64,000 bases of DNA from Ruegeria halocynthiae (GTDB lineage: Bacteria; Pseudomonadota; Alphaproteobacteria; Rhodobacterales; Rhodobacteraceae). The notes below the pieces were generated by a model. The model did no database searches, was not told the DNA's origin, and worked only from the letters and a program-made list of their open reading frames with translations. Below are positions 34,797-56,154 of the stretch, in pieces (within the stretch, counting starts at the first letter, position 1; each line of letters opens with the position of its first letter). Location: assembly GCF_000743705.1 (NCBI RefSeq), contig NZ_JQEZ01000002.1:41250-105249 (forward strand), given 5' to 3'. The translations under genes and the position numbers were made by a program.

Positions 34797-36191
34797 TCAC
34801 ATGTGAATGACCTTGCCATAAGCGTCCAACACGCTTTCGTGCATCATCTCTGACAGAGTTGGATGCGGGAAAACCGTGTTCATCAGGTCTTCTTCCGTCG
34901 TTTCCAACTGGCGGCCGACCACATAGCCCTGAATCAGTTCGGTTACTTCCGCGCCGATCATATGCGCGCCCAGCAATTCGCCGGTCTTGGCATCAAACAC
35001 CGTTTTGATCATCCCCTCAGGCTCACCCAGTGCGATGGCCTTACCGTTACCAATAAAGGGGAAGCGCCCGACTTTGATGTCGTAACCCAGTTCCTTGGCT
35101 TTTGCTTCGGTGTAGCCAACCGATGCCACCTGCGGCTGGCAATAGGTGCAGCCTGCGATGCTTTCGGGTTTCACCGGATGTGTATGTTTACCGGCGATCA
35201 ACTCTGCGACCATAACGCCCTCGTGGCTGGCCTTATGCGCCAACCACGGCGCGCCCGCGATATCGCCAATTGCATAGAGGCCATCGACACCCGTGCGACA
35301 GAATTCGTCCGTCACAACATGGGTCCGGTCGAGCTTTACGCCCAAAGCCTCAAGCCCCAAGTTTTCGACATTGCCAACGATCCCAACGGCCGAGATCACG
35401 GTGTCAAAGTCGTGCTTTTCGACCTTTCCCTTGACCTCGATATGCGCGGTCACCTTCCCTTTGGTGCGATCCAATTGCTTGACCATCGCCTTTTCCATGA
35501 TGGTCATGCCCTGCTTGGTGAACGCCTTTTTGGCCAAGGCACTGATCTCGGCGTCTTCGACCGGCAGCACGCGGTCCATCACCTCGACCACAGTCGTATC
35601 CGCGCCCAACGTGTTATAGAAGCTGGCGAATTCGATACCGATCGCGCCTGACCCGATTACCAACAGTTTTTTCGGCATCCGAGGCGGTTGCAACGCGTGC
35701 TTGTAGGTCCAGACCAGATCACCATCGGCCTCTAACCCCGGCAGCTCTCGCGCCCGGGCGCCCGTTGCCAGAACGATGTTCTTGGCGGTCAGCTCCTCAG
35801 AGTCCTTGTCGGTTTTGACAGTAACCTTACCCTTGGACGGGATTGTCGCCTCACCCATCACCACAGTTACTTTGTTTTTCTTCAGCAGGTGGCCAATGCC
35901 GCCCGAAAGCTGGCCGGCCACCCCGCGTGAGCGTTTTACAACCGCGTCCAGATCATAGCTGACCTTGTCGGCCTTCAGGCCGAAATCCTTGGCGCGCTCC
36001 ATCAGGTGGAACACTTCGGACGAACGCAACAAAGCCTTGGTCGGGATACAGCCCCAGTTCAGGCAGATACCGCCCAGATGCTCACGCTCGACAACGGCGG
36101 CTTTCAGGCCCAGTTGTGCAGCGCGAATGGCCGCTACATACCCGCCAGGACCGGCGCCGATTACGATCAGATCAAAAGATTGTGCAGCCAT
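34797..36191 (-). CDS. lpdA: Dihydrolipoyl dehydrogenase, E3 (464 aa)
   Basis: This FAD flavoprotein reoxidises dihydrolipoyl groups of 2-oxoacid dehydrogenase complexes and makes NADH. It has the FAD motif VIGAGPGGYVAAIRAAQLG, the redox disulfide C-LNWG-C in GGICLNWGCIPTKALL, the NAD motif VIGSGAIGIEFASFYNTLG, and the C-terminal histidine-glutamate pair in VFPHPTLSEMMHE. It stands apart from the pdhABC genes at 52466-56154 but shares their palindromic operator just upstream, so it is probably the E3 of the pyruvate dehydrogenase complex. Confidence 0.96.
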   Translation of the reverse strand: MAAQSFDLIVIGAGPGGYVAAIRAAQLGLKAAVVEREHLGGICLNWGCIPTKALLRSSEVFHLMERAKDFGLKADKVSYDLDAVVKRSRGVAGQLSGGIGHLLKKNKVTVVMGEATIPSKGKVTVKTDKDSEELTAKNIVLATGARARELPGLEADGDLVWTYKHALQPPRMPKKLLVIGSGAIGIEFASFYNTLGADTTVVEVMDRVLPVEDAEISALAKKAFTKQGMTIMEKAMVKQLDRTKGKVTAHIEVKGKVEKHDFDTVISAVGIVGNVENLGLEALGVKLDRTHVVTDEFCRTGVDGLYAIGDIAGAPWLAHKASHEGVMVAELIAGKHTHPVKPESIAGCTYCQPQVASVGYTEAKAKELGYDIKVGRFPFIGNGKAIALGEPEGMIKTVFDAKTGELLGAHMIGAEVTELIQGYVVGRQLETTEEDLMNTVFPHPTLSEMMHESVLDAYGKVIHM

Positions 36192-36218: not shown

Positions 36219-36246
36219 AAAATTAGTTTACCGTTAAACTAATTTT
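36219..36246. promoter_or_regulatory. Palindromic operator of lpdA (shared with pdhA)
   Basis: A perfect inverted repeat with 12-base arms, AAAATTAGTTTA and TAAACTAATTTT, flanks a 4-base centre (CCGT; ACGG on the minus strand). It ends 27 bases before the lpdA ATG. The core TAGTTTA-ACGG-TAAACTA on the minus strand differs in only one central base from the palindrome before pdhA (52419-52440). This is a probable repressor or activator site. Confidence 0.7.
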
Positions 36247-36407
36247 CGCAATGCATCAATATCCTCGCTCCGCGACAAAAGCGACGCGGGGTCAACAGGA
36301 ATGTATTGTGCGGTTTTCAGCCTATACCGGGCTTGTCCCAAACGCTAGAACAGAGAGGCCGGAAAAGACCGGTCATTGGGAAACTCATGTCATTCGAAAG
36401 GCTTACC

Positions 36408-36842
36408 ATGGCCAGAACGCTCAGGAATTTGTTGCTCGCATTATTGAACGCCACCCTTATTCTGGTCGCATTATGTCTGTTTCTGGGGTGGAAACTGGCG
36501 TCAACTGTCGAGGGCATCTCGTTGGCGCTTGCCGATGCTGTACAGGTCGCAGCCCCCCTGCGCGACGATGTTCTGGGCATTCACGAAGAACTGATCGCAT
36601 TGCGCAGCGATCTGGCGTCGATCCAGATCGGCGATGTCATCCAGAACACCGAAGCCGCCCAAGAAGTATCAGCCGCGCTGAACAGGTTAGAGCAGCTGGA
36701 GCAAAACCTGCTGGGCAGTCAAATTCAACTGGCGGAATTTACAGATTCGCCTGATGACCTGATCGATCAGGCCATTCAGGTCGCGGCCGACGCAATCGCC
36801 GACCGGATCATTGCAATTCGGGGCTGCGTACCGCCGGGTTAA
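36408..36842 (+). CDS. Small membrane-anchored protein of unknown function (144 aa)
   Basis: I do not recognise this protein. It has one N-terminal hydrophobic helix (residues about 5-30, RNLLLALLNATLILVALCLFLGW) and an acidic, helical remainder rich in leucine and glutamate (LRDDVLGIHEELIALRSDLA, NRLEQLEQNLLGSQIQLAE), likely a periplasmic coiled coil. ATG 36408 follows GAAAGG; ATG 36387 in frame is also possible. The final bases overlap by 4 with the end of the DUF924 gene on the opposite strand. Confidence 0.65.
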   Translation: MARTLRNLLLALLNATLILVALCLFLGWKLASTVEGISLALADAVQVAAPLRDDVLGIHEELIALRSDLASIQIGDVIQNTEAAQEVSAALNRLEQLEQNLLGSQIQLAEFTDSPDDLIDQAIQVAADAIADRIIAIRGCVPPG

Positions 36843-52318: not shown

Positions 52319-52418
52319 ACCCTCCTCAACGACTTTTCTGTGCCGCACCGGCCAGACCCGGCGTGATCCGACGTCGCGTCACATTTCCCCTCGCCAGAAA
52401 GCTGGAAATGCTTTATGA

Positions 52419-52440
52419 GATAGTTTAACGCTAAACTATC
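52419..52440. promoter_or_regulatory. Palindromic operator of pdhABC (shared with lpdA)
   Basis: GATAGTTTA and TAAACTATC form perfect 9-base arms around ACGC, ending 25 bases before the pdhA ATG. The site matches the lpdA palindrome at 36219-36246 in its core, spacing and distance to the start codon, which points to a common regulator for E1, E2 and E3 of pyruvate dehydrogenase. Confidence 0.7.
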
Positions 52441-52465: not shown

Positions 52466-53455
52466 ATGGCTGCGCGAAAAACCACAAAGAAACCAAATGT
52501 TTCTGCGGAAGAACTGACCACATTTTACCGAGAAATGCTGCTGATCCGCCGATTCGAGGAAAAGGCCGGCCAGCTTTACGGGATGGGCCTGATCGGCGGG
52601 TTCTGTCACCTGTATATCGGTCAGGAAGCTGTGGTTGTGGGCCTTGAGGCCGCAGCCAAAGAAGGTGACAAACGCATCACCTCATACCGCGATCACGGCC
52701 ACATGCTGGCTTGTGGCATGGAACCCGGCGGCGTCATGGCTGAACTGACCGGGCGCGAGGGCGGTCTGTCCAAGGGTAAGGGCGGCTCGATGCACATGTT
52801 CTCGAAAGAGAAACATTTCTATGGCGGCCACGGCATCGTCGGTGCGCAGGTGCCACTGGGGGCCGGTCTGGCATTTGCCGACAAGTACAAGGAAAACGGC
52901 GGCGTCACCTTTACGTATTTCGGTGATGGCGCAGCAAACCAGGGTCAGGTTTACGAGACCTTCAACATGGCCGCCCTGTGGGACTTGCCGGTTGTTTTCG
53001 TGATCGAGAATAACCAATACGCCATGGGCACCTCTCAGGCCCGTTCAACGTCAACCAAAGACATTTACCACCGTGGCGAAGCCTTCGGTATCCCAGGTGA
53101 AATCGTCAACGGCATGGACGTTCTGGCGGTGAAAGAGGCAGGTGAAAAGGCCGTCGCCCACTGCCGCGCAGGCAAAGGTCCCTACATTCTGGAAATCAAG
53201 ACCTACCGCTATCGCGGCCACTCGATGTCTGACCCGGCCAAGTACCGCACCCGCGAAGAGGTCCAGAAAGTTCGTGAGCAAAGCGACCCGATCGAACATG
53301 TGCGTGAACTGCTGTTGACCGGAAAACACGCGACCGAGGACGACCTGAAGGCGATCGACAAAGAGATCAAAGAGATCGTCAACAAGGCCGCCGAATTCTC
53401 GAAAGAAAGCCCCGAGCCGTCGCTGGACGAGCTTTGGACCGACATCTACGCCTGA
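52466..53455 (+). CDS. pdhA: Pyruvate dehydrogenase E1 alpha subunit (329 aa)
   Basis: The E1 alpha chain binds thiamine diphosphate and, with E1 beta, decarboxylates pyruvate. Hallmarks: RRFEEKAGQLYGMGLIGGFCHLYIGQEAV, SYRDHGHMLACG, the metal/TPP motif GDGAANQGQVYETFNMAALW with IENNQYAMGT, and the phosphorylation-loop region YRGHSMSDPAKYRTREE. The basic N-terminus (MAARKTTKKPNVS) is usual in this group. It is the first gene of pdhABC, 15 bases before pdhB. Confidence 0.96.
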   Translation: MAARKTTKKPNVSAEELTTFYREMLLIRRFEEKAGQLYGMGLIGGFCHLYIGQEAVVVGLEAAAKEGDKRITSYRDHGHMLACGMEPGGVMAELTGREGGLSKGKGGSMHMFSKEKHFYGGHGIVGAQVPLGAGLAFADKYKENGGVTFTYFGDGAANQGQVYETFNMAALWDLPVVFVIENNQYAMGTSQARSTSTKDIYHRGEAFGIPGEIVNGMDVLAVKEAGEKAVAHCRAGKGPYILEIKTYRYRGHSMSDPAKYRTREEVQKVREQSDPIEHVRELLLTGKHATEDDLKAIDKEIKEIVNKAAEFSKESPEPSLDELWTDIYA

Positions 53456-53470
53456 GAGGACGAATAAGAC

Positions 53471-54841
53471 ATGGCAACAGAAATTCTCATGCCCGCGCTC
53501 TCACCCACAATGGAAGAGGGCACTTTGGCCAAATGGCTGGTCAAGGAAGGCGACACCGTATCCTCAGGCGATATCATGGCCGAGATTGAAACCGACAAAG
53601 CCACGATGGAGTTCGAGGCCGTCGATGAAGGCATCGTCGGCAAGATCCTGATCGCCGAAGGCACTGAAGGGGTCAAGGTCAACACGCCCATCGCCGTTCT
53701 GGTCGAGGAAGGCGAAGACGCCTCGGCCCTGCCCGCGGCTGCGCCCGCAGCCGCAGCGGTGGCCGAAGCCGCCCCTGCGGCGGTCGAGGCCCCCGCTCCT
53801 GCCTCTGCCCCCGCAGCGCCGGTGGTCGATCACTCTCCCGACTGGCCCGCAGATGCCGAGATGAAATCCGAAACCGTACGCGAAGCTTTGCGTGACGCCA
53901 TGGCCGAAGAAATGCGCGCGGACGAAGATGTCTACCTGATGGGCGAAGAAGTCGCCGAATATCAGGGCGCTTACAAAATCTCTCAGGGATTGCTGGACGA
54001 GTTCGGCGGCAAGCGCGTGATCGACACACCGATCACCGAACATGGGTTTGCTGGTATCGCCGTGGGTTCCGCCATGGCCGGACTAAAGCCGATTGTCGAG
54101 TTCATGACCTTCAACTTCGCGATGCAGGCGATTGACCAGATCATCAACTCGGCTGCCAAGACGCTCTATATGTCAGGCGGTCAGATGGGTTGTCCGATTG
54201 TGTTCCGTGGTCCCAATGGTGCCGCTGCGCGCGTGGGGGCTCAACACTCTCAGGACTATGCCGCATGGTACATGCAGGTTCCTGGCCTCAAAGTGGTGAT
54301 GCCCTATTCCGCTGCTGACGCCAAAGGTCTGCTGAAATCTGCGATCCGTGACCCCAATCCGGTTGTGTTTCTGGAAAACGAAATCCTCTACGGTCGCTCG
54401 TTCGACATGCCGCAGGTGGATGATCTGACCATCCCGCTGGGCAAGGCGCGTATCTGGCGTGAAGGTTCGGATGTGACCATCGTCAGCTTTGGCATCGGCA
54501 TGCAATTCGCGCTGGAAGCCGCCGACAAACTGGCCGAGGACGGCATCAACGCCGAGGTGATCGACCTGCGCACCATCCGCCCGATGGACACCGGTGCCAT
54601 CATCAATTCGGTGATGAAAACCAACCGTCTGGTGACCGTCGAAGAAGGTTGGCCGCAAGGCTCGGTCGGTAGCTACATCTCGTCCGTGGTGATGCAAGAG
54701 GCGTTCGACTACCTTGATGCGCCTGTCATCACCCTGACAGGCAAGGATGTTCCGATGCCCTACGCCGCAAACCTGGAAAAACTGGCGCTTGTGACCACCG
54801 ATGAGGTGATCGCAGCCGTCAAACAAGTGACCTACCGGTAA
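53471..54841 (+). CDS. pdhB: Pyruvate dehydrogenase E1 beta subunit with N-terminal lipoyl domain (456 aa)
   Basis: Residues 1-80 are a lipoyl domain with the lipoyl-lysine in [15 protein letters not shown]. An alanine-proline linker (about 85-125) leads to the E1 beta TPP domain (about 130-456: [74 protein letters not shown]). A lipoyl domain on E1 beta is a known alphaproteobacterial variation. Its first 82 residues differ from those of PdhC at only 7 positions, pointing to domain duplication or gene conversion. It lies between pdhA and pdhC with gaps of 15 and 14 bases. Confidence 0.96.
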
Positions 54842-54855
54842 GGAGCGACAAACAG

Positions 54856-56154
54856 ATGCCCACCGAAATTCTGATGCCCGCCCTTTCACCGACGATGGAG
54901 GAAGGCACGCTTGCCAAATGGCTGGTCAAAGAAGGCGACACCGTCTCCTCTGGTGACCTACTGGCCGAGATTGAAACCGACAAGGCCACGATGGAGTTCG
55001 AGGCCGTTGACGAAGGCACCATCGGTAAGATCCTGATCGCTGAGGGCACCGAAGGGGTCAAGGTCAACACTGCCATCGCGGTTCTGTTGGAAGAAGGCGA
55101 AAGCGCCGATGATATCTCGGCCACGCCTGCCAAGACACCCGAGGCGGCACCAGCCGCCGCGGGCAACGAGGCTGCCGCGCCAGCGGCACCCGAGGCGCCC
55201 GCCCCTGCCCCGGCAGCACCGGCCAAGGCAGATGGCGGTCGTATCTTTGCCTCGCCCCTTGCCCGCCGGATCGCGTCGCAAAAGGGTTTGGACCTGACGC
55301 AGATCAGTGGCTCTGGCCCGCATGGTCGTATCGTCAAAGCCGATGTCGAAGGTGCAACGGCGATCGCTCCGGCGGCAGCCCCTGCACCCGCTGCTGCGGC
55401 CCAAGCGGCGGCGGCTCCGGCTGGCCCATCTGCCGACGCTGTCGCGCGGATGTACGAAGGGCGCGAGTATGAGGAAATCAAACTCGACGGGATGCGCAAA
55501 ATTATCGCCGCCCGCCTTACCGAAGCCAAACAGACCATCCCGCATTTCTACCTGCGTCGGGACATCAAGCTGGACGCGCTGCTGAAGTTCCGCAGCCAGT
55601 TGAACAAACAGCTTGAAGCGCGCGGTATAAAGCTGAGCGTGAATGACTTTATCATCAAGGCGGTCGCCAACGCGCTGCAACAGGTGCCCGAATGTAACGC
55701 CGTCTGGGCGGGCGACCGGGTGCTGCAACTGAAACCTTCAGATGTGGCTGTGGCTGTGGCTATCGAAGGCGGTTTATTCACCCCTGTCCTTCAGGACGCC
55801 GACACCAAATCGCTGTCGGCCCTGTCGACCGAGATGAAAGACCTGGCAGGCCGTGCCCGTGAGCGCAAACTGGCCCCGCATGAATATCAGGGCGGTACGT
55901 TTGCGGTTTCCAACCTTGGCATGTTTGGCATCGACAATTTCGACGCCATCGTGAACCCGCCCCATGCAGGTATCCTGGCCGTTGGCACAGGTGCCAAGAA
56001 ACCCGTTGTTGGGGATGATGGCGAACTGACTGTAGCAACGGTGATGTCGGTGACAATGTCTGTCGATCACCGCGTCATTGATGGCGCACTTGGGGCGCAA
56101 TTGCTGCAAGCCATTGTCGAAAACCTGGAAAACCCGATGGTCATGCTGGCCTGA
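54856..56154 (+). CDS. pdhC: Pyruvate dehydrogenase E2, dihydrolipoyl acetyltransferase (432 aa)
   Basis: The E2 core transfers the acetyl group to CoA. In order: lipoyl domain (residues 1-80, lysine in ETDKATMEF), Ala/Pro linker, peripheral-subunit-binding domain (about 130-170, [23 protein letters not shown]), second linker, and the catalytic domain (about 205-432) with [21 protein letters not shown] and the active-site motif [14 protein letters not shown]. It is the last gene of pdhABC. The E3 subunit gene lpdA lies elsewhere (34797-36191). Confidence 0.96.

Follow-up and report, generated by a model that had tools for sequence, protein, structure and literature searches.

The window analysed here, a stretch of 64,000 nt from the genome of Ruegeria halocynthiae, contains the pyruvate dehydrogenase genes pdhABC and, 16 kb from them, the E3 gene lpdA, each with its own putative palindromic operator. 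Judged by PdhA, the closest named relative is Ruegeria atlantica (98%). The features discussed are listed below, with positions counted within the window and the Pfam families of the gene products in brackets.

34797..36191, minus strand: lpdA, dihydrolipoyl dehydrogenase E3 (PF07992 Pyr_redox_2, PF02852 Pyr_redox_dim)
36224..36241, minus strand: putative lpdA operator, TAGTTTAACGGTAAACTA on the gene strand, perfect arms spanning 36219-36246, read directly
52391..52415, plus strand: promoter-like elements just ahead of the operator (TCGC, 52391-52394; TA, 52414-52415), in conserved columns
52421..52438, plus strand: putative pdhABC operator, TAGTTTAACGCTAAACTA, TAGTTTA-ACGC-TAAACTA, perfect arms spanning 52419-52440, read directly
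52466..53455, plus strand: pdhA, pyruvate dehydrogenase E1 alpha (PF00676 E1_dh, E 5.2e-107)
53471..54841, plus strand: pdhB, E1 beta with an N-terminal lipoyl domain (PF02779 Transket_pyr, PF02780 Transketolase_C, PF00364)
54856..56154, plus strand: pdhC, dihydrolipoyl acetyltransferase E2 (PF00198 2-oxoacid_dh, PF02817 E3-binding, PF00364 lipoyl)
G000:C3:413489-413929, same genome, outside the window: candidate marR gene, 146 aa (L412/L453)

According to the preliminary description, perfect inverted repeats lie 25 bases before pdhA and 27 bases before lpdA, and both the coordinates and the arms were confirmed. Upstream of pdhA (start at 52466) the palindrome reads GATAGTTTA-ACGC-TAAACTATC at 52419-52440; upstream of lpdA (start at 36191) the plus strand reads AAAATTAGTTTA-CCGT-TAAACTAATTTT at 36219-36246, with the core TAGTTTA-CCGT-TAAACTA at 36224-36241. 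Reading both 18-mers on the gene strand bore out the further claim that the cores differ at one base. The approximately 600 bases (36247-36838) that separate the lpdA operator from a DUF924 gene contain no tRNA, no Rfam match at gathering score and no assignable gene; two unverified open reading frames are present. Around pdh and lpdA, a Pfam scan of 20 window proteins found no GntR protein, and inspection of the neighbours in 80 loci revealed no regularly occurring regulator gene beside pdhA.

The palindrome is rare. Searching the window for TAGTTTANNNNTAAACTA with up to three mismatches returned exactly two matches, both perfect, while shuffled windows gave a mean of 0.19 and reached two matches in 2 of 100 cases. 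Genome-wide (4.31 Mb, 19 contigs) the core GTTTANCGNTAAAC is matched exactly at the pdhA and lpdA sites only, and the three one-mismatch matches all lie within genes or at a gene end. A loose pattern with two mismatches showed no enrichment in this genome (67 matches vs. 171 for the reversed pattern), and since the reversed control exceeded the real matches, weak sites were left out of the analysis. A weight matrix derived from the sites that precede pdhA in relatives gives the two sites 34.1 and 29.9, the next best position in the window being at -0.9; for 100 windows simulated with a Markov model, the best score of the same matrix averages 2.5 and is 18.9 at maximum.

Conservation was followed in 80 pdhA loci from named records, at least four of which (L099-L102) come from outside Rhodobacterales. 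Within 300 bases upstream of pdhA, the best match to TAGTTTANNNNTAAACTA had no more than three mismatches out of 14 in 71 of the 80 loci; the reversed pattern reached three mismatches upstream in a single locus, and inside the pdhA gene the pattern was found in none of the 80, the best match never having fewer than five mismatches. In 69 of the 80 loci the core GTTYANYRNTRAAC lies no more than 200 bases upstream of pdhA; it is found within the gene in none, and in none of the far-upstream stretches of the loci that were of sufficient length. The 71 sites share an invariant TT (positions 4-5), A7, T12 and AAC (14-16); 70 of them have G3, and 68 have a pyrimidine-purine step at the centre (CG 43, CA 11, TA 7, TG 7). 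Weaker-matching palindromes of the GTTYA type are visible at the usual place before pdhA in L035, L048, L057 and L073, an altered palindrome precedes pdhA in Pseudoroseicyclus (L093), and no palindrome is visible upstream of the gene in L085, L090 and L099-L102.

The surroundings of the palindrome are also conserved. In the alignment of the 71 pdhA loci, positions -30 to -27 from the operator's first base are occupied by T (54), C (34), G (45) and C (41), and positions -7 and -6 by T (54) and A (51); these TCGC and TA columns are among the most conserved upstream of the operator. A simple scan for a sigma-70 consensus gave no promoter at the pdhA or lpdA site. Nevertheless, a promoter presumably lies upstream of the operator, and with TCGC and TA conserved just upstream the operator probably overlaps the transcript start, which fits repression by blocking. 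The distance from the 3' end of the operator to the start codon is usually 20-40 bp.

In 25 named Rhodobacterales genomes, the pattern TAGTTYANYRNTRAACTA with at most one mismatch gave 60 matches, one to three per genome, and the reversed pattern five, three of them in G132. By target, these strict matches divide into pdhA (23), lpdA (22), maeB (13) and other (2); 41 of the matched stretches were read individually, and 19 matches were assigned to pdhA by their coordinates within known pdhA loci. The maeB copy L146 has malic enzyme domains and a phosphotransacetylase-like (PTA) domain according to Pfam, whereas the other maeB assignments rest on similarity to L146 and take in L297, L298 and L317, whose starts had automatically been called too far upstream. 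Among the matches listed, the maeB site is also present in the Ruegeria genomes G002, G008, G012 and G017, and no maeB site was listed for R. halocynthiae itself at up to one mismatch. In G009 a site AAGTTTAACGTTAAACTA (L150:4040-4057) lies approximately 110 bp before a short-chain dehydrogenase gene read as phaB-like, which is a possible extra member of the regulon. In Primorskyibacter (G158) a perfect palindrome (L313:3041-3058) precedes an ArsR-type gene with a CCGGRPELC tail; it may be there by chance or as a borrowed operator.

Since 58 of the 60 matches are found at pdhA, lpdA and maeB, the palindrome appears to be the operator of a small pyruvate-node regulon, and the target set is metabolically coherent because malic enzyme together with E1/E2 and E3 leads from malate to acetyl-CoA. 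This supports the initial suggestion of one regulator acting on E1/E2, on E3 and possibly on further carbon genes. The suggestion could have been undermined by loss of the palindrome before pdhA or lpdA in relatives, or by a similar frequency at random positions inside genes. Instead, the palindrome is kept at the great majority of pdhA loci as given above and, at the strict threshold, before lpdA in 22 of the 25 genomes, and a single match of the 60 (L328) lies inside an unrelated gene, a leuS-like leucyl-tRNA synthetase. Judged from sequence comparison, the palindrome is a conserved operator, kept at orthologous promoters and rare elsewhere.

Three regulator families, LacI, ArsR and MarR, were compared with the occurrence of the site. 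MarR was first suggested by G021 and G027, two alphaproteobacteria not belonging to the family, where the palindrome stands as a tandem pair before an oxidoreductase-marR operon encoding an Acg-type FMN oxidoreductase with a Tat signal and a MarR protein (NF047509 is above its cut-off for G027). The candidate of R. halocynthiae, 146 aa in length, carries the domains PF12802 MarR_2 (37.1 bits, cut-off 27) and PF01047 (26.0 bits, cut-off 24.6) and matches solved MarR-type structures with a best E value of 1.6e-7. It contains no cysteine, so a thiol switch within the protein is unlikely here. The gene lies downstream of glutaredoxin and carbon-nitrogen hydrolase genes and is faced by a ubiG-like methyltransferase gene. 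Pfam supports the glutaredoxin, hydrolase, methyltransferase and MarR domains of this cluster, ubiG being a name given by reading, and the hydrolase resembles the NCBIfam deaminated glutathione amidase below cut-off (222.6 vs. 500 bits). Around marR in 30 loci with short flanks, glutaredoxin was found in 28, carbon-nitrogen hydrolase in 27 and the ubiG-like methyltransferase in 26.

A MarR relative (E<=1e-6) is encoded in 31 of 34 genomes, namely the 29 with a clear pdhA site, Pseudoroseicyclus G143 and Hyphomonas G145, and each of the 29 as well as G143 has a copy of the cluster type. At the same threshold no relative was detected in Rubellimicrobium G141 and G142 (the latter a metagenome assembly, perhaps incomplete) or in Maricaulis G144, all three being without a site as judged at the pdhA promoter only. 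Hyphomonas G145 has a MarR relative but no pdhA site; a site is present on its own Acg-marR operon. The correspondence between MarR presence and site occurrence is partly confounded by descent. At the Rhodobacterales loci there is no operator before the marR gene itself and marR does not adjoin its targets, and the link between MarR and the site therefore rests on comparative evidence. In the complete genome of Paracoccus mutanolyticus (G135) both MarR (L452) and the LacI-family protein CceR (L199, L211) read as broken frames, which suggests sequence errors.

Comparative evidence of this kind is provided by the Acg-marR operons. Of 385 genomes searched across the class, 33 encode a MarR relative (E<=1e-20), five of these in the family of R. 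halocynthiae; one locus from each of the 28 other genomes, together with that of G145, makes up a set of 29 outside loci. The matrix, trained only on pdhA sites, scores at least 13, a threshold chosen after the scores were seen, at 19 of these 29 loci, 16 of them with an operator pair 20-24 bp apart:

L423-L428, L431-L433, L436-L440, L442, L445, L446, L448, L396: Acg-marR loci with the palindrome, several alphaproteobacterial families, mostly in tandem, in the promoter (gene starts of L431, L432, L446 and L448 misread by the script, making their operator distances unreliable)

An Acg-like gene stands beside marR in all 19 operator-bearing loci, the resemblance being weak in L445 (26% identity); overall, 27 of the 29 loci have such a gene there. 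Ten outside loci fall below 13, with G202, G250 and G313 scoring at most 2.7. As a control, 100 LacI and ArsR loci (362,601 bases) were scored; none reached 13, the best being 9.7.

The recognition helix and the operator vary together. Over 30 loci (the 29 outside loci and a paralogue, L395), an operator-type site accompanies the helix GA[MI]TN in 17 of 18 cases and other helices in two of 12 (Fisher p 2e-5, with related loci treated as independent). In the two exceptions, L396 and L440 (helix VTRGTMTSTL), the sites are of the TAGTTTGRYATCAAACTA type; weaker palindromes such as TAATTTGATATTGAATTA are found at the f121 loci (helix VSRATMTNTL), and no palindrome at a notable score was found in L443, L451, G202, G313 and G250. 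L435 (G391) has the canonical helix, no site and no adjacent Acg gene. In Pseudoroseicyclus G143 the altered helix LSRSAMTNTL coincides with the altered palindrome TGGTTCGAAGCTGAACCA / GATGGTTCGAAGCTGAACCATC at the usual place before pdhA. In most MarR relatives with an altered recognition helix the operator is altered or absent. The paralogue L395 (L395:1489-1941, also L456) is a second MarR of the Rhodobacterales genome G133, located beside an Acg-like oxidoreductase gene, with the changed helix VPKNSMTNTL and only low-scoring palindromes upstream. In a tree of 60 MarR proteins it groups with the oxidoreductase-linked MarRs, and 33 Rhodobacterales proteins form one group (support 100/100) apart from these. 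The MarR-family protein is most likely the binding partner of the operator.

The preliminary description knew of no named regulator for this site. In fact, a 2015 network paper had, in the text accessible to us, placed PdhAB and malic enzyme of R. sphaeroides under the predicted control of RSP_1663, the LacI-family CceR (also GapR) (PMC4344238). The co-occurrence data given here do not support CceR and point to the MarR-family protein instead. We consider it unlikely that CceR binds the site as a longer-spacer form of its own motif. The motif given in the accessible text, [A/G/T]GTT-N6-8-AAC[A/C/T] with two spacer clusters, would take in the present site as its N8 form (PMC4344238), and the even palindrome with a pyrimidine-purine centre (68/71) fits LacI proteins as described in the part of PMC4052901 at hand. 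However, the CceR/GapR target list in that same text includes neither pdh nor malic enzyme. A lower level of MaeB in a cceR deletion of P. denitrificans, reported in the available portion of PMC11323563, connects CceR with the target set, but deletion of a repressor acting at these operators should raise MaeB. The occurrence of CceR (L017) does not follow the site: in a comparison that leaves out L036, an orthologue (at least 60% identity) is found in nine of 11 site-bearing genomes and not in G132 or Halovulum G140, and it is present at 72-73% in the site-less Rubellimicrobium G141 (73%) and also in G143 with its altered site. Among the seven LacI-type genes of R. halocynthiae, L016 was rejected as well because of its patchy distribution, roughly one in four of 100 family genomes giving strong matches. 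Clustering of the fetched LacI proteins, some weak LacI matches being left out, gave no group represented in all site-bearing genomes. No CceR motif could be defined in R. halocynthiae, since the pattern TGTTANCGNTAACA with up to one mismatch has nine matches and its control also nine.

An ArsR-family or some other order-wide regulator could bind the site, the association with MarR being coincidental in Rhodobacterales, and this we regard as improbable. A 111-aa ArsR-family protein (G000:C2:665275-665607; L347, L363) is encoded order-wide, with 58-90% identity in 28 other site-bearing genomes, so that it is present in all 29, and the palindrome of Primorskyibacter stands before another ArsR-type gene (L313). 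As the comparison covered LacI, ArsR and MarR proteins, another order-wide regulator would be of a family beyond these, such as GntR, TetR, XRE, IclR, LysR or CRP/FNR. However, the ArsR protein is also found in the site-less Rubellimicrobium G141 (75% identity), where no MarR was detected, and likewise in G143. ArsR-type HTH_5 loci are without such an operator (best score 8.1 in 30 loci), and an ArsR protein leaves the operators on the Acg-marR promoters of other families unexplained. That the palindrome acts as an RNA, general promoter or terminator element is hardly credible: it does stand close to where transcription of its targets is expected to begin, but its arm bases are invariant beyond mere complementarity (GTTYA...TRAAC), neither palindrome has a terminator-like site, the window has no Rfam match at gathering scores, only one to three strict copies occur per genome in the 25 genomes, and identical sequence marks marR operon promoters in other families.

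In Escherichia coli the pyruvate dehydrogenase genes are regulated by PdhR, a protein of the GntR/FadR family with the site AATTGGTnnnACCAATT. The present system resembles it in having a local regulator of pyruvate dehydrogenase genes that would act at a palindrome near the promoter. It differs in protein family and site, the operator being unlike AATTGGTnnnACCAATT with no GntR gene near pdh, and the regulator gene is not beside pdh; further, E3 lies 16 kb off with a second operator, and malic enzyme belongs to the predicted regulon of many genomes. An oxidoreductase-marR operon with operators in its promoter is the usual layout of an autoregulated MarR. The candidate shares with such repressors the MarR domain, and its relatives are found in an Acg-type operon with promoter operators, whereas the Rhodobacterales MarR is outside such an operon, its own gene shows no preceding operator, and operons of central metabolism are the predicted targets. 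With CceR/GapR the system shares the order, an overlapping pathway and an even palindrome often with a central CG, but the site here is AGTT-N8-AACT and CceR occurrence mismatches that of the site. In Sinorhizobium meliloti, PhaR/AniA affects the levels of Pdh, Lpd and malic enzyme according to the part of PMC12542648 available to us. PhaR, which is PHB-responsive, was rejected as a candidate, as its published sites there are CTGCNNNGCAG-like and unlike the present palindrome (PMC12542648).

Taken together, we propose with a probability of about 0.83 that across Rhodobacterales a MarR-family repressor uses the palindrome as its operator to control pdhABC, lpdA and, in many genomes, maeB. From the genome comparisons we infer physical binding of MarR, repression and a ligand or other effector. 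MarR-family proteins bind palindromes of roughly 16-20 bp as dimers; here a MarR dimer would occupy the palindromes before these operons, and the bound dimer should stop their transcription, as the operator directly follows the promoter-like elements and usually leaves 20-40 bp to the start codon. MarR should come off the DNA on binding a ligand, which is probably a pyruvate/C4-node metabolite. The enzymes of the regulon together take malate via pyruvate to acetyl-CoA.

How the protein came to this role can be outlined tentatively, at somewhat less than even odds. A MarR that elsewhere in Alphaproteobacteria represses its own Acg-type operon may have been recruited early in Rhodobacterales as the dedicated regulator of the route through MaeB, PDH and E3, may have lost autoregulation while becoming co-encoded with glutaredoxin and the hydrolase, and may sense a 2-oxo acid or a redox/electrophile signal. 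As the root of the tree is arbitrary, we infer the direction of this recruitment.

A search of one open library found no MarR regulator of pyruvate dehydrogenase in Rhodobacterales, nor did it yield an experimental account of how these bacteria control the entry of pyruvate into the TCA cycle. The outcome of this study is an operator, a target set of three operons and a specific candidate regulator gene, all in testable form, and it calls into question the literature prediction that places pdh and malic enzyme under CceR. A local repressor seems in this case to have been drawn into central metabolism. In surface oceans Rhodobacterales, a large and mainly marine group, count among the abundant bacteria of the carbon cycle, and if the recruitment reading is true, entry into the TCA cycle would in these organisms be set by a MarR protein.
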